Origin: an uncultured Spirochaetales bacterium
GTDB taxonomy: Bacteria; Spirochaetota; Spirochaetia; Sphaerochaetales; Sphaerochaetaceae
Direction: 5' to 3'
Assembly: GCA_944388965.1 (NCBI GenBank)
Contig: CALXKL010000010.1
Location: 1-64,000, forward strand
DNA: 64,000 bases
In this document: positions 49,971-64,000 of the stretch, piece after piece
How the letters are laid out: each line of letters opens with the position of its first letter
Numbering within the stretch: the stretch's first letter is position 1
The notes under the pieces: generated by a model
The model's database searches: none
What the model was told of the DNA's origin: nothing
The model's input: the letters and a program-made list of their open reading frames with translations, nothing else
Made by a program: the position numbers and the translations under genes

Positions 49971-50075
49971 GCCAAGTATGAATCATCGCACAAACATGCG
50001 CTCTTGTTGAATAAGACAGGACAGGGGAATTGAGGTTAAAACGGAGGAAATCAGGCTGTCACCATGCTGTTCTTC

Positions 50076-50204
50076 TGGTGTAGCACTGGTGTAGCACTGG
50101 TGTAGCACTGGTGTAGCATCTGGTGTAGCATCTGGTGTAGCATCTGGTGTAGCATCTGGTGTAGCATCTGGTGTAGCATCTGGTGTAGCATCTGGTGTAG
50201 CATC
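50076..50204. repeat. Minisatellite of 11- and 12-base units
   Basis: Three perfect 11-base copies of TGGTGTAGCAC (50076-50108) are followed by eight perfect 12-base copies of TGGTGTAGCATC (50109-50204). The two unit types differ by one inserted base and one substitution. The array lies 106 bases upstream of the CLC gene, between it and the TPR-like gene. Confidence 0.95.
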
Positions 50205-53099: not shown

Positions 53100-53831
53100 A
53101 TGAGACGTGCACTTGCGTCTGTTCTTGTTCTGCTTTTCATTTCGTCCGCGCTGATGGCATACCAGCTGTCGCCCCTGAACGTGACCTACGCACCGACGGG
53201 TGCCGACAGCGCCAAGGTGTACACGATCACCAACGACTCCGACTCGCCGATCGCCATCGAGGTCACAGCCGAACAGAGGATAATCGACCTTGACGGCAAC
53301 GAGGTCAACCAGGACGGCTCCGCGTATTTCTCGATCCAGCCGTCAAGGATGATCATCCCCGCAGACACCACCCAGCTTGTGAGGGTGCAGTACCGCGGCC
53401 CTTCGACCGTGACCCGCGAACTCTCGTTCAGAATCGTCGCGGAGCAGATCCCGATGCCGCGTGGTGCGCAGGAGGCCGAGTCCGGGCAGATGATCAGCTT
53501 CCTCTTCGTGTATTCGACAAGCGCATACGTCAAGCCTTCCAGAATCGTCGAGAGCGTGTCGACATCCGTCTCGAGGAATGATGAAGGAAAGCTCGAGGTC
53601 ATCCTGGAGAACACCGGAAGCGTCCATCAGATGCTCAACAGCCTGTCCATCACGTTGCATGGCGATGACGGCAGTTCCTATGTGCTCACCGAGGACGAGC
53701 TTGCTCCGGTCTCCGGCAAGAACCTGCTCACCAACAGCCGTCTGAGGACCGTGATCGGGATTCCTGCATCGCTTAGAGGGGCATCCGTCATCACGGCGGA
53801 TGTCAGCTACGACTTCTCGTACTCGAACTGA
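53100..53831 (+). CDS. Periplasmic pilus-assembly chaperone (PapD-like)
   Basis: The 243-residue product has a signal peptide (MRRALASVLVLLFISSALMA) and two immunoglobulin-like domains. The first ends with the family's RVQYRGPSTVTRELSFRIV and AEQIPMPRG segments, which correspond to the chaperone G1 strand and the YRL-x-x-x-E-x-P linker of fimbrial chaperones. The second domain (about 125-243) is beta-rich. It should stabilise pilin subunits in the periplasm by donor-strand complementation and hand them to the usher encoded next. It is the first gene of the operon. Confidence 0.82.
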   Translation: MRRALASVLVLLFISSALMAYQLSPLNVTYAPTGADSAKVYTITNDSDSPIAIEVTAEQRIIDLDGNEVNQDGSAYFSIQPSRMIIPADTTQLVRVQYRGPSTVTRELSFRIVAEQIPMPRGAQEAESGQMISFLFVYSTSAYVKPSRIVESVSTSVSRNDEGKLEVILENTGSVHQMLNSLSITLHGDDGSSYVLTEDELAPVSGKNLLTNSRLRTVIGIPASLRGASVITADVSYDFSYSN

Positions 53832-53860: not shown

Positions 53861-56800
53861 ATGTCAGGGAAGGGAAGTAGGAGCAGGACTCCTGAGATTC
53901 TCATACTTATCTCATCTGCCGCGGCGTTCGTGCTGACCGTCGTGGCCTGTCTGTGTGCAGACGAAGTCGGCAGAGCGGGTACCGCCGTCATGGCCATATC
54001 GGCCCTGGCCTGTGCGCTGGTGTCGGCGAACATGATGGTACATGCTGGAGGATCTGCTGCCGGAGGACTGCTGGTCACTGTCCTGCTGATCTGCATGCTG
54101 GCATTCGCCTTCTCATACATACTCCATTATCTCTTTACCCGACCAGGCGAGGAAGCCATCCCTGCAGTGGAAGAATCGAAGGTTGCGGAAGATGCCGTAC
54201 CTGCGGATGCACAGCGGGAGCAGGAATCCACTGCATTGGATACCCGTGAAGAAGAGAGTATCTCCACTGCAACGGAGGACATGACAGAGGAAACGTCAAC
54301 GGAACAGGAGACGATTTTGCAGGACATGGATGGAGAAGACATACATGTCCTGGCAGAGTCCGGAGAAATCGATACGCTCCCTGGTTACGGAGAAGACGCA
54401 CAAGAGACATCCGGGCAGGAGCCTCAAGCCGGACTCTGTGAAGATGCCGTTCCTCCAACCAAGTCTGAAGACGAAGAACAGCCCGGCGCAATCGTCGCCG
54501 ATGTTCCCGATGCACCATCAGGACTCTTTGCCACTACCATGGTTGAAGGCGAAGAAGATGAAGAACAGCCAACGGCTTTGGAAGAAGATGATGTCGAGGA
54601 CTTCGGCATATACGTCGACCCATATGCCGACGATGATTTCTGGGCGAGCTTCTATATCGCAGGCCAGGATGAACTCGTGCTGGAGGACGGCATCTATTAC
54701 ATGTCGCTCTACATAAACGACGTCAACACAGGAGTCATATCCACTCTGATGGAGGGTGGAATCGCATCGCTGTCCACCTCCGAGCTTGAAGACCACACCT
54801 ATGGCACCCTTACGGACGAGGCCAGAAGCCGTCTTTTCAACGAGAGGGGAAGCTACATAACGCTTGACGAGCTGGAGCAGGTCGGTGTCCAGACCAGACT
54901 CGACAGCACTGCATACGAGGTGTATCTGACCTTCGACCCACATGACATGCCGGTTCAGATCCTCAGCATCAGGGGCAGCTCCAGAAGGATGGTCAACAGG
55001 CCGATCTCCGGTGGAATCGAGGTCGATCCGGCCGTATTCACGTTGATATCCCGCCACAGCCTGTCAATGGGATTCGACGACCTCAGACGGGATGACGTGA
55101 TGTCCGGATTCTGGGGCTACTTCTCCTCTACCAACAGTGGACGGTTGTACAATGTCGACTTCGACTTCTCCTTCGGCTTCCACTTCACGGCGGACTCGTT
55201 CGACTTCTCGAATCTTACATACAGCTTCCATCGCGACTTCCCGGATGCCATGATGCGTCTGCAGTGGGGCATGGTCGGCACATCGCTCCTGTCCCCGTCG
55301 GGAACGGGAATCGGAATACGATTCGACAAGAGCCTGTCCTATTCCAACGACAGGACGTCCAACCGCAGCCATACGGAGCAGCTCGTCGTTGTCGAGAAGA
55401 CATCCGATGTCGAGGTGTTCAACGAAGGACGCTCGATTTTCAAGAGGACGCTGTCTGCCGGAATGTACAGACTGCAGGACTTCGTTCTCTATTCCGGTGC
55501 AAACAGAATCCTAATCCGCATCTCGCCTCTTGACGGCTCGCCTGTCAGGGAGATCGAGTTCGATGTCCTCTATTCCTCCTCCCTGCTTGCACCTGGAGAG
55601 GCGTATTACGGCGCCTCCCTTGCCTTCAGCAGAAGACTGACGGACAACAGGGTGGAAAAGTCAGATTCCGCATTCTCGCTTCCGCTGTGGAACGACAGGA
55701 GAATAGACTACGACTTCGCAGACGTCGTCCTGAGCGCATACGTCCGAGCCGGTCTTACGGAGAGGACGACGATGAATGCGACAATTGCATTGCAGAACAG
55801 GCCAACAGAGCTTTCCCTGTGGGGTCCGAACGCCTCTCTTGCAATGGAGTTCACAAACGTGAACATCCTTGGCAATTCACGTCTCTCGCTCACTCTCGCC
55901 GAGAGAAGCGACGAGAGTGGCGACTTCACGTTGCCCACGCTGAATGCGAACATCGGCCATCAGGTATCCACGGACATGAGATGGCTTAGTTCGCTCAGCT
56001 TCGGAGCATCCTGGACCAACCCGTCCAACTGGAACTTCGAGAACTCGAACTTCATCTCGTTCAACGCCGGAGTCGGAGGCGGTTTCGGTATCGTCGGCTG
56101 GAGTCTTTCGGCCTTCGGCGGCTTCGATATAAGCGATCCTACGATCTGGTCATGGAGTACATCTGCAAGTGTCAGTGTGAATCTGGGCAGACATGTCTAT
56201 GTGTCCGGCTCTCTCAATGCAAGCGGTACGAACGACATCAGACCTGAGATCTCCGGAAGAGTCAGCGCCAGCCTGAGATTCGGAGGTGTTAGTACAAGCG
56301 CCAGTACTGATTTTGAGAACGTTTCGCTTAGGTTCTCCGCCGGTGGAGGACGTCATTCGCTGTCAGGCAGCATCAATGGTTCCAACATTCTCGATGTGGA
56401 TACCTGGAACATGAACGCATCCTATTCCTATGGTGGAAGGAGAATCGCGGCAGGTGTGAACATGAACTCGTCCCAGCTCTTCGACAGAGTGGGGCTCTCT
56501 GCGAATCTGTCGACCTCCACGGTCTTTGCCGACGGTCTGTTCGCAATCGCATCCAGCATCCCGTCCAATTTCCTGCTGGTCAGCCAGAAGGGGGCGCTCA
56601 AAGGCAATGACCTGTCCATAGGCACTCCCGGAACCTCTTCGTTCGCCGAGACGCCGACCACGTTCGGTACGGCCTTGTACACGGGACTGCCGAGCTATGG
56701 AAACACGAGTCTCATGGTATACAGCTCCGGAAGCGACCAGTTCTCGGTGGCCCAGTCGCTTGCCGTCAATCTCACAGCCTCGGATATGAAGGGATATGTT

Positions 56801-57235
56801 CTCAGGATGGAGGCGGAGGACAGCTTCTCCGCTTCAGGCATGGTGTACCTGCCTGATGGAAGCCTGTGGCTCAATGGATCTTCTCCACTCTATTCGGTCA
56901 TGAATGATGGCAATGGGAATGTGACGACGACAGCGACCGATTCATATATCTTCACGGACAGCGATGGTCGTTTCGTCGTCTCCCAGCTGCCTGCCGGAAC
57001 ATATGGATTCGATGTCCCGTATGAAGGCGGATGGCTGCTATACATCTTCCCGGTCAGTGATGATCCGGATGCCTTCTCCATGCTCCAGATGATGGGAGAG
57101 CCGGCAGAATCCGATTCATCGACATCGCTTCCCGAACCCTACATGGAATCCTACGTCTATGAAATGGACGAGATCATATCCTCCCAGCAGTTCTTCGAGC
57201 TGCTTTATCCCGAAGCGATGGAGGTGGCCGTATGA
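53861..57235 (+). CDS. Usher-like outer-membrane protein with N-terminal membrane domain
   Basis: The product is 1,124 residues. Residues 264-380 resemble the usher N-domain (GIYYMSLYINDVNTG, RMVNRPISGGIEVDP); then comes a long beta-barrel region with the usher plug-like segment DVEVFNEGRSIFKRTL, RLQDFVLYSGANRILI and LLAPGEAYYGASLAFSRRL, and a C-terminal FTDSDGRFVVSQLPAGTYGF typical of usher ends. What is odd is the start: instead of a signal peptide it has three transmembrane helices (about 12-33, 40-62, 64-92) and an acidic, low-complexity linker (about 96-258). A fused frame is unbroken, so this is a real fusion. It overlaps the next gene by four bases. Confidence 0.78.
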   Translation: MSGKGSRSRTPEILILISSAAAFVLTVVACLCADEVGRAGTAVMAISALACALVSANMMVHAGGSAAGGLLVTVLLICMLAFAFSYILHYLFTRPGEEAIPAVEESKVAEDAVPADAQREQESTALDTREEESISTATEDMTEETSTEQETILQDMDGEDIHVLAESGEIDTLPGYGEDAQETSGQEPQAGLCEDAVPPTKSEDEEQPGAIVADVPDAPSGLFATTMVEGEEDEEQPTALEEDDVEDFGIYVDPYADDDFWASFYIAGQDELVLEDGIYYMSLYINDVNTGVISTLMEGGIASLSTSELEDHTYGTLTDEARSRLFNERGSYITLDELEQVGVQTRLDSTAYEVYLTFDPHDMPVQILSIRGSSRRMVNRPISGGIEVDPAVFTLISRHSLSMGFDDLRRDDVMSGFWGYFSSTNSGRLYNVDFDFSFGFHFTADSFDFSNLTYSFHRDFPDAMMRLQWGMVGTSLLSPSGTGIGIRFDKSLSYSNDRTSNRSHTEQLVVVEKTSDVEVFNEGRSIFKRTLSAGMYRLQDFVLYSGANRILIRISPLDGSPVREIEFDVLYSSSLLAPGEAYYGASLAFSRRLTDNRVEKSDSAFSLPLWNDRRIDYDFADVVLSAYVRAGLTERTTMNATIALQNRPTELSLWGPNASLAMEFTNVNILGNSRLSLTLAERSDESGDFTLPTLNANIGHQVSTDMRWLSSLSFGASWTNPSNWNFENSNFISFNAGVGGGFGIVGWSLSAFGGFDISDPTIWSWSTSASVSVNLGRHVYVSGSLNASGTNDIRPEISGRVSASLRFGGVSTSASTDFENVSLRFSAGGGRHSLSGSINGSNILDVDTWNMNASYSYGGRRIAAGVNMNSSQLFDRVGLSANLSTSTVFADGLFAIASSIPSNFLLVSQKGALKGNDLSIGTPGTSSFAETPTTFGTALYTGLPSYGNTSLMVYSSGSDQFSVAQSLAVNLTASDMKGYVLRMEAEDSFSASGMVYLPDGSLWLNGSSPLYSVMNDGNGNVTTTATDSYIFTDSDGRFVVSQLPAGTYGFDVPYEGGWLLYIFPVSDDPDAFSMLQMMGEPAESDSSTSLPEPYMESYVYEMDEIISSQQFFELLYPEAMEVAV

Positions 57236-57942
57236 AGCTTAAGCAGAAAGTCATCAGCCTTTCCATTCTTTTTACCTGCATGTTCATGACCGGAGTTTCC
57301 GCTGCTGACAGTCAGGAGCTGGTGATCAAGGCATATAAGATTGCTAGAAGCGATCAAAAAGGCATCACGGAATTCGTCGTCACGGATGCCCTTGCTGATT
57401 TCGATGACCTGGACAAGATTTCGGATACCAGGAATGAAATTATCCTGGACAGGCATATCGGTACATATCTTGGTCGTATCGAGAAGCTTGATGACAAGGC
57501 GTTTTCCGAGCATATCGTGTTCTCTGTCAGAATAGCAGGAGCTGGAACTTCTTCGTATACTGGTACTTCCTCTTTGGAGGAAGATGATACTGACCAATAT
57601 CAGGTGACAATGACCTTTTCACCTTTTGTCTATGGAGATAATGGTGTGACATCTACCTTGGATGCATGCTATCAGCTTGGAAACATCACAGGCATATTCG
57701 AAGCAAACAGCTCTTCGACCCATGGTTCTGAAACGATTACTATGACCGAAGGAACTGATTATGTTGCCAATTCAGGCTCCTTGTCATTCAACTGGCAAGT
57801 CACTACGAATTCCGGTTCCTTATCACAATGGACGGTGCGTGCTGCTGTCGCCATGACAATCGGTGAAGATAGTTACAACAACTGTACCCAATACGGCAAA
57901 CATTCCGCGACCGTTACTGTCAAGTTGGAGGCCGTCAGATGA
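57232..57942 (+). CDS. Secreted pilin-like subunit 1
   Basis: The 236-residue product begins with a signal peptide (MKLKQKVISLSILFTCMFMT, cleaved near VSAA). It is beta-rich with many Ser, Thr and Gly and ends in HSATVTVKLEAVR, like a pilin's final strand. It has two cysteines (ACYQLG and YNNCTQ) that could form a disulphide. Its start overlaps the usher stop (ATGA) and its end overlaps the next gene, so assembly with the usher is implied. It does not share the Trp core motif of the later subunits. Confidence 0.6.
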   Translation: MKLKQKVISLSILFTCMFMTGVSAADSQELVIKAYKIARSDQKGITEFVVTDALADFDDLDKISDTRNEIILDRHIGTYLGRIEKLDDKAFSEHIVFSVRIAGAGTSSYTGTSSLEEDDTDQYQVTMTFSPFVYGDNGVTSTLDACYQLGNITGIFEANSSSTHGSETITMTEGTDYVANSGSLSFNWQVTTNSGSLSQWTVRAAVAMTIGEDSYNNCTQYGKHSATVTVKLEAVR

Positions 57943-58595
57943 GAAAAATCCATCTGATCATTCTTCTTATCTTTGTCCTTGCAAATGTCAATGCAGCGTA
58001 CGTGCATGAGACCACCAGGCATTTTGACCTCCAGGCAGGATATGGCGCAACCTCGTCAATCAACATCACTCCGATTCCGGCCCAGAGCCAGTCATATGTC
58101 GTCGGAATGCCTTTCAGTATCGAAGATCCGATGGTCACCGACTCAACGGGATTTGGGCGCCAGATTGCTACATTCACTTTGCTAAGCAATGTCGATTTCA
58201 ACATAATTATCGAACCTGCTGCGTCATACGATGGGAAAATGCGTCATGTGGATGCGAAAGGAGAGCCTGTAATGAATGAAGATGGCTCATACGAGCATGA
58301 AGGTCTGGATTACATCCTTGAATTCCGGTATCTGCTTGGCTACGTGGGTGAAGGCAATACGCAAGATTCTCGTGAAGGTGAATTTACATATGAATCCAGA
58401 ATTGTAACTAAAACTATTTCGGATTTGACCATGGGATACACCGGAGAGGGAAACGCTTTCATCGGTACGGCCAATGGAGCCATCTTCTTCAGATTTGACG
58501 ATAAAAGCTCAGGCATGATCGAAAACCCAAATAACACGCTTCCAGCTGGTGACTACATGGCTCATGTGAAGATAACTCTGGAGGACAAGAAATGA
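57939..58595 (+). CDS. Secreted pilin-like subunit 2
   Basis: The 218-residue product has a signal peptide (MRKIHLIILLIFVLANVNA) and a beta-rich mature part. It ends with TLPAGDYMAHVKITLEDKK, the G-x-Y-x-A-x-[VL] strand ending seen across this gene cluster. A VTDSTG segment and two long charged loops lie in the middle. Both ends overlap neighbouring genes by four bases. The role within the fibre is unknown. Confidence 0.6.
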   Translation: MRKIHLIILLIFVLANVNAAYVHETTRHFDLQAGYGATSSINITPIPAQSQSYVVGMPFSIEDPMVTDSTGFGRQIATFTLLSNVDFNIIIEPAASYDGKMRHVDAKGEPVMNEDGSYEHEGLDYILEFRYLLGYVGEGNTQDSREGEFTYESRIVTKTISDLTMGYTGEGNAFIGTANGAIFFRFDDKSSGMIENPNNTLPAGDYMAHVKITLEDKK

Positions 58596-59863
58596 CCAGA
58601 AGAACCATATTCGTTTTCCTCCTTCTCCTGTTCATCTGCTTCAATTTGATGGCGGTCGCCCATGTCGCCATAGCTCCGGAAACCGGTGCCTATGGAGTCA
58701 ATATGGCCAGCTCTAAATATCGTGGAAACGAACACAGCGGAAACAATTTCTCGTGGATCAAAGGTACGGGTGAACCTGATAATCCGACATTCGATCAGCT
58801 TACTGGTGTACAAAGCAAACAATGGTATCTTGACCAGCATATCATCGGTCTTGGTGGTGTTTATGATCTCGAGTCGTCTCAGAAAAACTCGAATACGAGA
58901 TATACGGTCACGGCATACTGTGCCAATGGATTCAACTTCAAGTCTCAGAGCAATCCGAACATCGTAAGACCTTTCGAAATACTGATTGTCGCAAGATATG
59001 GAGAAGAGAAAACGGACCGTGTAGAAGCACTCAAGTCTTCCGGACAGTCTGAGACATTCTATTATAAGGGTGCTAAGGACTATCTCTGGTTCGACCTTGT
59101 GCTTGCTCTGCCCCTTGATGAAGATCCGGTACCTGGCTCGAATTACATCAAGGCAGACGGTCAGACTTACTCCCTCGTACAGACAAATGATTATACCGCT
59201 CTGGTGACCATCAACGTGACGGCTTGGGATGAGAATGGAGTCATCGGCACGGATTCGATCAGCATACCGTTTTCCGGGTATTTCAATGGGCAAACCGAAG
59301 GAAAGGGTGATGACAGACTGAGCCTGATGTTCACTCCTAATGCGAATGCCGGCAATCTTAATATCCAGACCCAGCATTCTCTTCCGATTCCGGTTGGCAA
59401 CATCGACTTCATGCTCGATGCCGAATATACGGAAAGGAAAGACGGTTGGGGAAACGATATCTCCGATAGATATGATCCTGGCTATGTGAAGATATTCTTC
59501 TCGTCCAGAAATGAACCCGATGATGCAAATACCCAGCCTTTCCGGTTCGTCCATAGTTCAGTAGGTGATTCTGATCCACTGACGAATTACAATTCCATCG
59601 GATACGAGATAGTCGTTAGCGGTTCGAATTCAAGTACTTCCTTTTCCGGAGACGATCATCTGGTCAATGGTGATGTCGAGAATGCAATCATTCCGGAAAA
59701 GGTGACAAGTAATACTTCGCATCAAGGCGCACGTGAATTCTTCGAGTATTCCGGGACAATCAACGTCATCATCGATGAACCGACGACGATTATGCAAGAA
59801 GGAGATTATCACGACACAGTATATGTCCATGTCGTTACGGATCATGACAAGGCGGGAAAATGA
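58592..59863 (+). CDS. Large secreted pilin-like protein, possible tip adhesin
   Basis: At 423 residues it is the largest protein of the subunit cluster. It has a signal peptide (MTRRTIFVFLLLLFICFNLM) and a long mature region rich in Asn, Ser, Gly and Thr, with the closing IMQEGDYHDTVYVHVV matching the terminal strand of the others. Tip adhesins in chaperone-usher fibres are two-domain and larger than the shaft pilins, so an adhesin role is a reasonable guess, not shown. It overlaps its neighbours by four bases at each end. Confidence 0.55.
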   Translation: MTRRTIFVFLLLLFICFNLMAVAHVAIAPETGAYGVNMASSKYRGNEHSGNNFSWIKGTGEPDNPTFDQLTGVQSKQWYLDQHIIGLGGVYDLESSQKNSNTRYTVTAYCANGFNFKSQSNPNIVRPFEILIVARYGEEKTDRVEALKSSGQSETFYYKGAKDYLWFDLVLALPLDEDPVPGSNYIKADGQTYSLVQTNDYTALVTINVTAWDENGVIGTDSISIPFSGYFNGQTEGKGDDRLSLMFTPNANAGNLNIQTQHSLPIPVGNIDFMLDAEYTERKDGWGNDISDRYDPGYVKIFFSSRNEPDDANTQPFRFVHSSVGDSDPLTNYNSIGYEIVVSGSNSSTSFSGDDHLVNGDVENAIIPEKVTSNTSHQGAREFFEYSGTINVIIDEPTTIMQEGDYHDTVYVHVVTDHDKAGK

Positions 59864-59874
59864 GGAGGCAAGGA

Positions 59875-60450
59875 ATGAGAAAAAGCATAATGGCAGTCAT
59901 TATTATCCTACTCTTTATTTCGAATGCCTACGCTGCCGAGGAAACGAAGTCTCTAGCCGTATCAACCATTGTACCGGTTGACTATGGAGTTGTGTTCCCT
60001 GCAGACGGACTGAGACTGGACCGGCTGTATCTTGCATTGGAGGCTGCTGGTGGAGACAGGAACTATCTAACGACAGACGATACGACAATCCATACCGGTC
60101 TCATAACGGATCATCCGGATGGAATGGTGTTCCACTTCCTCTTCTACGGGAACCTGGCAACAACATATCAGGTGATGATAACTGCGGATGCTGGAAGCGG
60201 ACTTGTTCTCCAGAGTGGGGACGACACGTTCACCATACCTGTGGATGTCTCCTTCCAGGAGCCGGAGGAGGAGAACGACAACGTCGTCCTGGAGATTCTC
60301 GATGGGAACACGGCGATGCTCCAGGTGGATACGGCCGGAGCCGTGAGCGCACTTGACGTGCTTGAGCTGAGAGTGAAGTGGGAGGATTCTCCTGAAATCA
60401 TAGCGGGAGATTACATGGCGGATCTGAGTCTTGAACTCACGACGATGTGA
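59875..60450 (+). CDS. Secreted pilin-like subunit 4
   Basis: The 191-residue product has a signal peptide (MRKSIMAVIIILLFISNAYA) and a beta-rich mature part ending in IIAGDYMADLSLELTTM, the cluster's common final strand. It has FHFLFYGNLATTYQVMI where other members have the Trp motif. ATG 59875 was chosen because GAGGAGG lies just upstream, whereas the ATG at 59860 has none. Confidence 0.6.
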   Translation: MRKSIMAVIIILLFISNAYAAEETKSLAVSTIVPVDYGVVFPADGLRLDRLYLALEAAGGDRNYLTTDDTTIHTGLITDHPDGMVFHFLFYGNLATTYQVMITADAGSGLVLQSGDDTFTIPVDVSFQEPEEENDNVVLEILDGNTAMLQVDTAGAVSALDVLELRVKWEDSPEIIAGDYMADLSLELTTM

Positions 60451-60469
60451 CGAGGAGGAGCTGGTGATT

Positions 60470-61051
60470 ATGAAAAGACTTGTCTTCTCTATGATTGTGA
60501 TGACAGTAGGCCTGCTTGCCTGTTGGGCTTCAGAACCTCTGGAGTCCAAGACTTTAGAGGTGGCGCTGGATCTGAGTTCTGAGTCGACGATCACATGGTA
60601 TGATTTCGGCTTCTCGTCAACTCAGGTCGGCAGCGGGAAGGAGGAGACTCCTGTCGCTTATGAGCCGACGGAAATCGATCATATAGCGCTTGTCCTGGAA
60701 TCAGGTGCAGATGCTGACAGAATTGCCGAGAACACTGACGGCTCCCTATGGGTGTATTGGCATATCACATCAGGATCCGGGCTGGAGATTTCCATTGCTG
60801 GTGATGGTGATATGAAGAAGGAGGTTCCAGAATCCGAGGGGGAGAAAATCGGTTGGAACATCGCAATCGATTCTGCAGATGGAAAGGGCAGTGGGGAAAC
60901 GCAAGTCGTATTCACACATGACCCTTCTGAAAACAGTGTAGGTGCAGATGGATCCAAAAAAATTCTTCTGGCTACAGAAGATCTCACCGGGCTGACTCTT
61001 TCGCCTGGTGAGTATACTGCGAATCTAAAACTTTCAATTGTCAAAAAATGA
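60470..61051 (+). CDS. Secreted pilin-like subunit 5
   Basis: The 193-residue product has a signal peptide (MKRLVFSMIVMTVGLLACWA). The mature part contains the shared core WVYWHITSGSGLEISI and ends with LSPGEYTANLKLSIVKK. The signal region contains a Cys at residue 18, which could be a lipidation site, but the context (LLACWA) is not a perfect lipobox. The ATG at 60470 has GAGGAGGAG upstream. It begins the series of clearly related paralogues. Confidence 0.65.
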   Translation: MKRLVFSMIVMTVGLLACWASEPLESKTLEVALDLSSESTITWYDFGFSSTQVGSGKEETPVAYEPTEIDHIALVLESGADADRIAENTDGSLWVYWHITSGSGLEISIAGDGDMKKEVPESEGEKIGWNIAIDSADGKGSGETQVVFTHDPSENSVGADGSKKILLATEDLTGLTLSPGEYTANLKLSIVKK

Positions 61052-61062
61052 GGAGAAATGAT

Positions 61063-61746
61063 ATGAAGAGAACTCTTTGTCTAATGGCTCTCGTCTTGCT
61101 GATCGTTTCGGCATTGTCTGCAGGTGAGGAAACCACAAGCCCTTCCTATAGCGGTGGTATAGATAATGCCAATGCCAAAGCTACTACTCAGGTTTCGTTG
61201 AATATCGGAGGCGGAGATGCAAGTGCTTCTAAGATCGAACTGTACTTCTTGAAGGCTCAGGATGAGAACCAGAGTGCTACGTCTCAAGCTCCAGACAATA
61301 CGAAATTGCAACCTTCTGTTGCTCTTGCCTTCAATTCCACCCCGAATGTTGCCGATAATACGGCTGACGGCTCTGGCGTCTATGCGTGGTGGAGAGTGCT
61401 GTATGGTGGAAATCTCTATATCAAGCTTGAGATTGATAAAGCGCTTTCGAAAGATGAAGAGACCGAGACTATCGACTGGGAAGCTGCAGCGACGGTTTTA
61501 TCTCCCGCTACGGATGCCTCTGAGGGGGATGGTCTGAGCACCACTACTGTTAAGAAGACAGTCTATTCAAAGGTAGGAAGTGGAAATAAGATTGAAACCT
61601 TCGCTACTCATGTTGGAACGAAAGGCGTTCTGTCGTTTGGGCAGGCCAGGATCGATATCAAGACGGATGCAAACGAGGATTTTTCCAAGATTCCTGCCGG
61701 TACATATTCTGCGAATCTTACCCTGATTTGCACAACAGAAAACTGA
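61063..61746 (+). CDS. Secreted pilin-like subunit 6
   Basis: The 227-residue product has a signal peptide (MKRTLCLMALVLLIVSALSA), the core motif YAWWRVLYGGNLYIKLEI, and the ending KIPAGTYSANLTLICTTEN. A middle loop is long and rich in Ser and Thr. The start at 61063 has AGGAGA six bases upstream. It is related to the flanking subunits. Confidence 0.68.
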   Translation: MKRTLCLMALVLLIVSALSAGEETTSPSYSGGIDNANAKATTQVSLNIGGGDASASKIELYFLKAQDENQSATSQAPDNTKLQPSVALAFNSTPNVADNTADGSGVYAWWRVLYGGNLYIKLEIDKALSKDEETETIDWEAAATVLSPATDASEGDGLSTTTVKKTVYSKVGSGNKIETFATHVGTKGVLSFGQARIDIKTDANEDFSKIPAGTYSANLTLICTTEN

Positions 61747-61779
61747 ACAATGGAAGATAGAAAATAGGAGAAAAAGAAA

Positions 61780-62376
61780 ATGAAGAAGTTGATTATTGTT
61801 GTTTTGATTGCGGCGGTTTCTGTCGTAAGCATTTTTGCTGCTACACAGGGTAGTGCTTCAGGTACAGTCGGGGATAATCCGGAAGCTTATACTGTCGTAA
61901 CACTTGACTTGACTGATGGTGGTAAGTCGTATGTTGAACTGTGGTTTGACAAAGAAGCGTCTACCAGTATCCCAGATACTCCTAAGGCTACGGTCAATCT
62001 TGGATTTTCTGACGACGCCACTAGTGCAAGCAATTCTGGAGATCCTCTTTACGCTTGCTGGAATATAGTCTCTGGAGATTCAATTGACGTTGAGCTTTAT
62101 CTGACAGGTCCGCTTACAGCGAATGGTAAAGATATCGAATGGACTGCAACCTGGAAAAATGATAGTAGTGCAAATGTCACGATTTCATCTAATGAAGTTA
62201 CTGGTGATTCTCTAGAAGGTTCGGATGTACTTAAATCATATACTGATACAACAGGTAATCCACTTAAGAAGACTGATAGCAAACAGATAACAATTTCTAC
62301 TACCACTATTGATTATACGGATATCGTGCCCGGTACATATACGGCCAATCTGTATCTGAGATGTAAGACTAACTGA
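61780..62376 (+). CDS. Secreted pilin-like subunit 7
   Basis: The 198-residue product has a signal peptide (MKKLIIVVLIAAVSVVSIFA), the core YACWNIVSGDSIDVELYLTG and the ending IVPGTYTANLYLRCKTN. It contains two cysteines, one in the core motif (YACW) and one at the final strand (RCKT), which may pair. Low-complexity Ser-Asp-Gly stretches and a more AT-rich codon choice set this gene apart from the housekeeping genes earlier in the window. Confidence 0.68.
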   Translation: MKKLIIVVLIAAVSVVSIFAATQGSASGTVGDNPEAYTVVTLDLTDGGKSYVELWFDKEASTSIPDTPKATVNLGFSDDATSASNSGDPLYACWNIVSGDSIDVELYLTGPLTANGKDIEWTATWKNDSSANVTISSNEVTGDSLEGSDVLKSYTDTTGNPLKKTDSKQITISTTTIDYTDIVPGTYTANLYLRCKTN

Positions 62377-62408
62377 TTTTCCTCAAAGGTTTTCTGGAGG
62401 CTGAAGTC

Positions 62409-62996
62409 ATGAAGAGGTTTATGATCCTGTTACTTCTCGTATTTCCGGTGTGTCTTGTATCTGGTGAAGTGTCGTTTTCGACTACTGATTCCTCTGATTC
62501 TGAGGCAATCAAGGCCGCCGATGCATCGGTGGATACGGTACTGGACCTCTCTGGCTTCAGCTTTGTCAGCCTTGGGATCTATGACGAGTCTGATTCCACC
62601 GATCCTATCGAAGAGGTTCCGCTGGAACTGATTCGGGATGCCGAGGGGGCAATCAAGGCGATTGAAGACGTAGTGATCAGATATGCTGTCAAATATTCCG
62701 GGACCTTTGATCTCATGTTGCAGGCTGGAAATCCAGTGGAAGGAAATACTGGGGATGTGATTCACTGGAGAGCCTGTGTACAAGATGTAAACGGGAATAT
62801 GAAATGGACTGGGGAAGGCCAGGTTGGAGGCGAAGAGTATTCGGCAATTGTCATACACAGCCATGAGAAAACAGCTGGGAACTATGACGATGGGACAGTC
62901 TCCGTCAGCCTGGAGACCGTTGCTCTTTCCAGTCCAGACCAGAAGCCTGCAAAGCTTGAAGAGCCGCTTAAGGTGTACATCTTTCCGCGGGGGTAG
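62409..62996 (+). CDS. Secreted pilin-like subunit 8 (divergent)
   Basis: The 195-residue product has a signal peptide (MKRFMILLLLVFPVCLVSGE) and a beta-rich mature part. Its core reads IRYAVKYSGTFDLMLQAGNP, in which the Trp of the paralogues is missing, and its ending KLEEPLKVYIFPRG lacks the Tyr-x-Ala pattern. It is therefore a more distant relative or a specialised subunit. A good ribosome binding site (CTGGAGG) precedes the ATG. Confidence 0.6.
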   Translation: MKRFMILLLLVFPVCLVSGEVSFSTTDSSDSEAIKAADASVDTVLDLSGFSFVSLGIYDESDSTDPIEEVPLELIRDAEGAIKAIEDVVIRYAVKYSGTFDLMLQAGNPVEGNTGDVIHWRACVQDVNGNMKWTGEGQVGGEEYSAIVIHSHEKTAGNYDDGTVSVSLETVALSSPDQKPAKLEEPLKVYIFPRG

Positions 62997-63002
62997 TGAT
63001 TC

Positions 63003-63563
63003 ATGAAAAGACGTTTCTGCCTCATCTTCATTCTTGTGTCTGTCTTGATGACTTCGTTTGCAGTTGATTCGGAGAAGAACTATGAAGTCAAGTTCGACAC
63101 GCGACAGTATGCTCCGTTTTATCTCGACTTCGGATTTCGCAAAAGTGGATCAGAGGCAATTGAAAACGGTGAGGTCGACTTTTCTAGCATGACACTGGGG
63201 GAGGATCAGGCATCTGCCGTGCTGCAGCTTGAGGCTTACTGGAATATCATCTCCGATAAAAAGATTGAACTCTCATTGGAGATCGGTGCTCTTGTAAATG
63301 GAGAAGGTGAGTCCCGCAAGGAACTGGACTGGACACTTGAGTGGACTGAAGGAAGCGGAAGAATAGTACTGGACAGCTCAGTTGATGATAAGAAAACAGC
63401 TGTGATTCACACCCATCAAGGTCAGCAATACGACTATGATCAAGATTCAGTAGCCCTCAGAGGGTATGTGAATGTAGAGTATGGATCGGATGATTTCAAG
63501 AATATGGCTCTCGATACATATCGCGGTACGTTGACCTTGAAGGTGACTTCTTACGGAGGGTGA
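63003..63563 (+). CDS. Secreted pilin-like subunit 9
   Basis: The 186-residue product has a signal peptide (MKRRFCLIFILVSVLMTSFA), the core EAYWNIISDKKIELSLEIGA followed by LDWTLEW, and the ending ALDTYRGTLTLKVTSYGG. It lacks cysteine in the mature part. It is followed after one base by the next related gene. Confidence 0.65.
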   Translation: MKRRFCLIFILVSVLMTSFAVDSEKNYEVKFDTRQYAPFYLDFGFRKSGSEAIENGEVDFSSMTLGEDQASAVLQLEAYWNIISDKKIELSLEIGALVNGEGESRKELDWTLEWTEGSGRIVLDSSVDDKKTAVIHTHQGQQYDYDQDSVALRGYVNVEYGSDDFKNMALDTYRGTLTLKVTSYGG

Positions 63564-63564
63564 T

Positions 63565-64000
63565 ATGAAACGGACGGTCCTAGTGCTTATCATCATTATT
63601 TCTATTGTCCACCTGATTCCTGCTTCGGTAGTCATCAATTCGGATGAAAGTTGTGGGCAGGCAACGGCGAATCTGCTTCTTGTCATGGATGAGGTCAAGA
63701 AGGAGAACTTCGGCTTATCCTCTGAACCTGTTGATATCAACAACTCTCCAGTCCCGATAACGGCAGTAGAACTTGAAGGCCAGCTTTCTTCTAATGGTCA
63801 GACCCTGATCGGCTCGAAAACCGTATATGCCTATTGGGATATCGCTTCAGTGGACAAGGTGAGGCTTTCCGTCTCGATTAATAGCCCTATGAGTGGAGAA
63901 ACAGGAAAGGTGAATCTTCACTGGTGCTGTTATTCCGACGATATAGATGATGTGAGACATTATGTCGGGTATGCGAATAATGGCGACTATCTTGTCGATC
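63565..64000 (+). CDS. Secreted pilin-like subunit 10, cut by the window end
   Basis: The reading frame opens with an ATG at 63565 preceded by CGGAGGG and gives at least 145 residues without a stop. It begins with a signal peptide (MKRTVLVLIIIISIVHLIPA) and contains the family core VYAYWDIASVDKVRLSVSIN. The 3' end lies beyond the window, so the gene is partial and the cluster continues. Confidence 0.65.
   Translation, partial: MKRTVLVLIIIISIVHLIPASVVINSDESCGQATANLLLVMDEVKKENFGLSSEPVDINNSPVPITAVELEGQLSSNGQTLIGSKTVYAYWDIASVDKVRLSVSINSPMSGETGKVNLHWCCYSDDIDDVRHYVGYANNGDYLVD

Follow-up and report, generated by a model that had tools for sequence, protein, structure and literature searches.

The window, the whole 64,000-nucleotide stretch analyzed here, belongs to contig 10 of a 2.1-Mb spirochaete genome and contains, toward its end, the start of a tightly packed operon of 14 genes on the + strand (53100-65475), in the order chaperone, usher, S1, S2, S3, S4, six array pilins, S11, and S12. 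Chaperone-usher pili are best known from Proteobacteria. Twelve of the genes encode pilin-like subunits, including the two-domain, tip-like S3, and each array gene product has a signal-peptide-like N-terminus. The operon comprises the following features, the last of which lie beyond the window:

53100..53831, + strand: periplasmic chaperone of the PapD type (Pfam PapD_N; G1 donor strand and F1 arginine motifs)
53861..57235, + strand: divergent outer-membrane usher, 1124 aa (family-profile match to other spirochaete ushers)
53897..54112, + strand: N-terminal part of the usher, with three transmembrane helices predicted within aa 13-84 (Kyte-Doolittle scan)
54113..54613, + strand: acidic linker of the usher, 167 aa (30% D/E, 3% K/R)
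57232..57942, + strand: S1, pilin-like subunit at a fixed position (orthologue in every complete operon compared)
57939..58595, + strand: S2, pilin-like subunit at a fixed position (operon comparison; alternating N-terminal strand)
58592..59863, + strand: S3, two-domain tip-like protein (AlphaFold model, Foldseek matches)
59875..60450, + strand: S4, pilin-like subunit (in 19 of 23 comparison operons; alternating N-terminal strand)
60470..61051, + strand: array pilin 1 (independent family profile, 103 bits)
61063..61746 (alternative start 61048), + strand: array pilin 2 (independent family profile, 80 bits)
61780..62376, + strand: array pilin 3, the one modeled with AlphaFold (independent family profile, 100 bits)
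62409..62996, + strand: array pilin 4, with a diverged C-terminus lacking the terminal G-T-Y (50 bits)
63003..63563, + strand: array pilin 5 (independent family profile, 74 bits)
63565..64000, continuing on the contig to 64206, + strand: array pilin 6 (77 bits for the full protein)
64217-64813, beyond the window, + strand: S11, a more distant relative (21 bits to the array profile)
64810-65475, beyond the window, + strand: S12 (contig open reading frame)

An earlier note on this DNA had placed a family of tandem paralogues at 60470-64000, a span that was right for the first five genes but too short for the sixth, which ends at 64206. The gene 3' of S12 encodes what we read as a putative GntR-like regulator. 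Promoter and terminator scans of the locus gave no signal above the shuffled level. GC content was 41-52% in the subunit genes (57232-64000), 55-59% in the chaperone and usher genes, and 57% in the rest of the window. We also observed about 11 tandem copies of the 12-base unit TCTGGTGTAGCA at 50074-50204 and, outside the window, about two tandem copies of a tRNA-gene-like 84-base unit (L002 16856-17013).

The array genes form one paralogous family

The six tandem genes at 60470-64206 were confirmed as one paralogous family. An alignment of 125 family members revealed a core of the form [VL]-Y-[VA]-[YF]-[WY]-x-I, with Trp at the core aromatic position in 84 rows and Tyr in 36, a second Trp 27 residues past the core in 97 rows, and a terminal strand, G-[TS]-Y-x-[GA]-x-[LI]-x-L-x-V, whose Tyr was present in 116 of the 125. 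An independent profile, for which 26 proteins from four other operons and no window sequences were used, scored the six window proteins at 103, 80, 100, 50, 74, and 77 bits (E 1e-29 to 2e-13). As controls, 11,000 shuffles (1,000 for each of 11 operon proteins) gave at best 16.6 bits, and reversed sequences gave at best 19.6 bits; given the scores of the independent profile relative to shuffles, we rejected a chance motif. The window array proteins also matched one another pairwise (E 1e-7 to 3e-3), with identities of about 15-30%, and searches of Pfam, NCBIfam, PHROGs, and PDB sequences returned no consistent family for the array pilins.

The alignment showed the earlier description of a shared aromatic-x-Trp core, a second Trp, and a common C-terminal strand to be accurate. 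The gene that had been called degenerate (62409-62996) does lack the terminal G-T-Y but is an intact family member.

Predicted subunit fold and secretion machinery

The AlphaFold model of array pilin 3, made with 125 sequences, had a pLDDT of 85.8 and was confident in its core, which begins at residue 31 and runs to the C-terminus. Foldseek searches of the PDB placed CfaB, the PapG pilin domain, Caf1, and FimA among its best matches, at E values of 1.2e-3 and weaker. A second structural aligner returned CS17, the CFA/I adhesin, EcpA, Csu, FimG, and PapA at Z scores of 5.5-7.0, with chaperone-usher pilins making up 37 of 50 rows and matched from about residue 30 to the C-terminus. A best Z of 7.0 can stem from a common arrangement, so that the consistency of the hits and the operon context have to decide; on these grounds, the array subunits are predicted, with moderate scores, to have the incomplete Ig fold of chaperone-usher pilins. 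The predicted fold, the genomic context, and the PapD/usher pair all support the previous suggestion of a pilin-like family.

Large hydrophobics occupy residues 18, 20, 22, and 24 of the array family at frequencies of 0.69, 0.91, 0.99, and 0.82, and the positions in between at 0.28 or less. In array pilin 3, this alternating segment (residues 16-24, mature numbering) is unpaired in the monomer model, which fits a donor strand needing a partner, and we consider it the candidate donor strand. Similar N-terminal alternation follows the signal peptide in S1, S2, S4, S11, and S12; the same pattern scan found no N-terminal alternating donor segment in S3. The terminal GTYxAxL strand, which had been put forward as a possible donor strand, was not supported in that role by the model, as structural alignments placed it on the pilin's own last strand, F. 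We found no conserved cysteine pair in the subunits.

The AlphaFold model of S3 (pLDDT 88.3) contains two tandem pilin-like domains. Its Foldseek matches were led by a CfaB-CfaB fusion (5.8e-6), with FimH and CfaE also listed; the first domain matched the CfaE pilin domain and self-complemented CsuA/B (Z 9.4 and 9.0), and the second matched the FimH pilin domain (Z 6.2). These matches fit S3 as a tip protein whose first domain would be closed and whose second domain would await the next subunit.

The chaperone matched Pfam PapD_N (PF00345) at 29.8 bits, above the cut-off of 23. Its G1 donor strand is I132-x-F134-x-F136-x-Y138-S139 and its F1 arginine is R111; R111, Y138, S139, and the G1 pattern were invariant across 14 aligned relatives. 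Non-classical and archaic chaperones are marked by an F1 arginine (Arg89 of CsuC) and a Tyr-Ser at the end of the donor strand, which in CsuC is Val110-Phe112-Met114-Tyr116-Ser117 (PMC4654587). Both of these archaic-subfamily marks are present in the window chaperone, whose I-x-F-x-F-x-Y-S pattern matches the CsuC strand and whose invariant F1 arginine compares with Arg89, as in archaic (sigma) pili such as Csu of Acinetobacter baumannii. When the chaperone profile was compared with PDB sequences, EcpB was the sole match (E 0.016), with R111 aligned to the arginine of the EcpB segment YYRIV.

The window usher scored 13.2 bits against Pfam Usher (PF00577), below the cut-off of 27.1, and its profile had no sequence match among solved ushers. 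A single-sequence scan of genome collections with this usher gave no matches; relatives were recovered by an alignment-based scan. The profile of its family matched ushers of other spirochaete families (E 4e-13 and 1e-21), which themselves exceed the Pfam Usher cut-off, with 52 and 45 bits, and have SCPU-type subunits alongside. These operons thus tie the window system to the archaic group; on these sequence comparisons, it is related to archaic (SCPU-type) chaperone-usher systems but has diverged from them.

In the window usher, the predicted helices and the acidic linker (53897-54613) precede the usual usher N-domain, a feature kept across related operons. A hydropathy scan predicted one to seven N-terminal helices in each complete array-operon usher, three being the commonest number, followed, where the N-domain motif was located, by a linker about 120-240 residues long and 20-31% D/E. 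As the helix numbers are mostly odd, the linker would be periplasmic. Among six closer pairs, codon position 3 of the helix region changes 2.3-12 times as often as position 2, indicating protein-level constraint rather than a wrong start. The simplest reading of the hydropathy scan is that the usher may stay tied to the inner membrane, which, if true, would be an unusual build for a chaperone-usher machine; a narrow search of the open-licence literature found no similar usher.

Like archaic pili, the window system has a two-domain tip-like protein, and SCPU subunits are encoded in the homologous operons of other spirochaete families. In contrast to archaic pili, it has twelve subunits rather than about four, an N-terminal membrane domain and acidic linker on the usher, and subunits without a conserved cysteine pair. 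SCPU (PF05229) was absent from the families listed for 125 array pilins (to E of about 0.07) and from the matches of window S1-S4. The EcpB match of the chaperone profile and the presence of CfaB, CS17, and EcpA among the top structural matches of the array pilin recall alternative (alpha) pili such as ECP and CFA/I, from which the operon layout, the array, and the predicted membrane-anchored usher differ. A search of the open-licence literature found no description of such a chaperone-usher system in spirochaetes, which is weak evidence of novelty.

Related operons and the order of array genes

A chaperone of this kind occurs in 80 of 297 genomes of the spirochaete class, and the elaborate version of the system in animal-gut species. 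The relatives recovered by the usher scan are gut spirochaete assemblies, including Candidatus Ornithospirochaeta. Across the 297 genomes, the window's genus had two with multi-copy arrays, and one further genus also had such arrays. With open reading frames classed by profiles, the 24 array-bearing operons of gut Spirochaetaceae, the window's included, share one layout, chaperone-usher-S1-S2-S3-(S4)-array-S11-S12 with an array of 2-9 genes, apart from one that is rearranged (L074) and whose chaperone match is short. L071 has no recognized S11, and L065 begins within the usher; L067, L077, and L079 are fragmentary and contain no array. The L065 contig, filed under Candidatus Phocaeicola faecipullorum, carries a spirochaete operon and is probably misbinned.

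Other usher-bearing genomes of the family mostly have a chaperone-usher pair, which often adjoins V-ATPase genes. Several of these genomes have unlinked pilin-S1-S2-S3 cassettes, sometimes several per genome. The window genome carries the array operon together with this subunit-less pair and cassette version:

L034 11712-15827 (G000:C11): second chaperone-usher pair, adjoining V-type ATPase genes, without subunits
L089 6661-10097 (G000:C1): unlinked cassette in which S1-, S2-, and S3-like genes are joined by one for a fourth secreted protein, without chaperone or usher

The V-ATPase-linked usher is 25-33% identical to the array-operon usher over most of its length, and the cassettes hold homologues of S1, S2, and S3. 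Unlike the array operon, the V-ATPase-linked pair has no array, a single predicted N-terminal helix on its usher, and substrates encoded elsewhere. GC content is 43% in the L089 cassette and 60% in the stretch after it.

Among the best matches of 127 array pilins, 111 were in another species' operon and 16 in the protein's own operon (4.9 by chance). Reciprocal best matches between species were concordant in gene order at 71-80%, compared with an expected 50% and a maximum of 66.5% in 500 permutations. In a tree of the 127 proteins, array pilins of close operon pairs paired copy by copy, end branches were long (median 1.04), and deep support was weak; lineage-specific expansions were seen for L071 copies 1-5 and L068 copies 3-6. 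The small number of own-operon best matches and the kept order indicate that most duplications predate the species. Expansion by local duplication, as the earlier note had it, therefore holds for the paralogy and for a few local expansions, but most duplications are old and collinear. The pressure for surface variation that it had suggested was not borne out: kept positional orthology suggests distinct structural roles, and no short tandem repeats, a sign of phase variation, were found within the subunit genes.

A proposed many-subunit pilus and its alternatives

We consider it probable (roughly 80%) that the array proteins serve as pilins in a divergent chaperone-usher pilus, built from many different subunits, of a gut spirochaete. 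Computation showed paralogues kept in order, a predicted pilin fold, homology of the chaperone and usher, and a conserved layout; from these we infer a polymer assembled by donor strand exchange, with S3 at its tip and one role per gene. After secretion, each subunit would be capped in the periplasm by the G1 strand that the PapD-like chaperone lends it and then handed to the usher; its N-terminal alternating segment (A-x-V-x-V-x-L-D-L) would fill the groove of the previous subunit, joining it to its neighbor. In the incomplete Ig fold, the aromatic-x-Trp strand common to the family would be a core strand and the terminal GTYxAxL strand the F strand. With its two domains and no N-terminal donor, S3 would most likely sit at the tip; behind it, array members, S1, S2, S4, S11, and S12 would make up a mixed fiber in which each array gene has its own place or role. 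Counting against this pilus are the weak Foldseek E values of the array pilin, the usher score below the Pfam cut-off, and the poorly resolved deep tree.

The array genes could instead encode alternative major pilins for different surfaces, exported by one usher as separate homopolymers with no shared fiber. The one-pilin cassettes with S1-S2-S3 elsewhere in the family would share one chaperone-usher pair, so one usher could serve several substrate sets; however, the array is flanked by the fixed S1-S4 and S11-S12 within a single packed operon that has only one tip-like S3, and its paralogue order is kept, which makes separate homopolymers unlikely. We regard as less likely still a reservoir for surface or antigenic variation, with recently duplicated major pilins diverging under selection or switched singly. 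The range of array sizes among species, the expansions in L071 and L068, and the excess of own-operon best matches over chance are in its favor, but the predominance of best matches in other species' operons, the lack of short tandem repeats, and the packing of the genes like one transcription unit argue against it, and no sign of a variation system was found at the array operon. The paralogue order kept between species also fits a many-subunit pilus better than a reservoir of surface variants. That the proteins share a motif by chance, or are unrelated Ig-like proteins that are secreted but have no part in a pilus, is very improbable: low pairwise identity and the absence of a consistent Pfam family would allow it, but the independent profile scores relative to shuffles, the predicted pilin fold, and the usher linkage in all 24 array operons speak strongly the other way.

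More tentatively, and rather less likely than not, the many-subunit pilus may contain about a dozen subunits whose order is fixed by one gene per position, secreted by a single-polypeptide usher tied to both membranes. Such an usher would comprise an N-terminal inner-membrane bundle, an acidic linker across the spirochaete periplasm, and an outer-membrane barrel. A many-subunit ordered array, if true, would make usher control of subunit order testable.

The ushers of L055 (9164-12589) and L060 (9155-12634) are 89% identical in the membrane region and 57% in the first 700 residues, a contrast possibly due to recombination.
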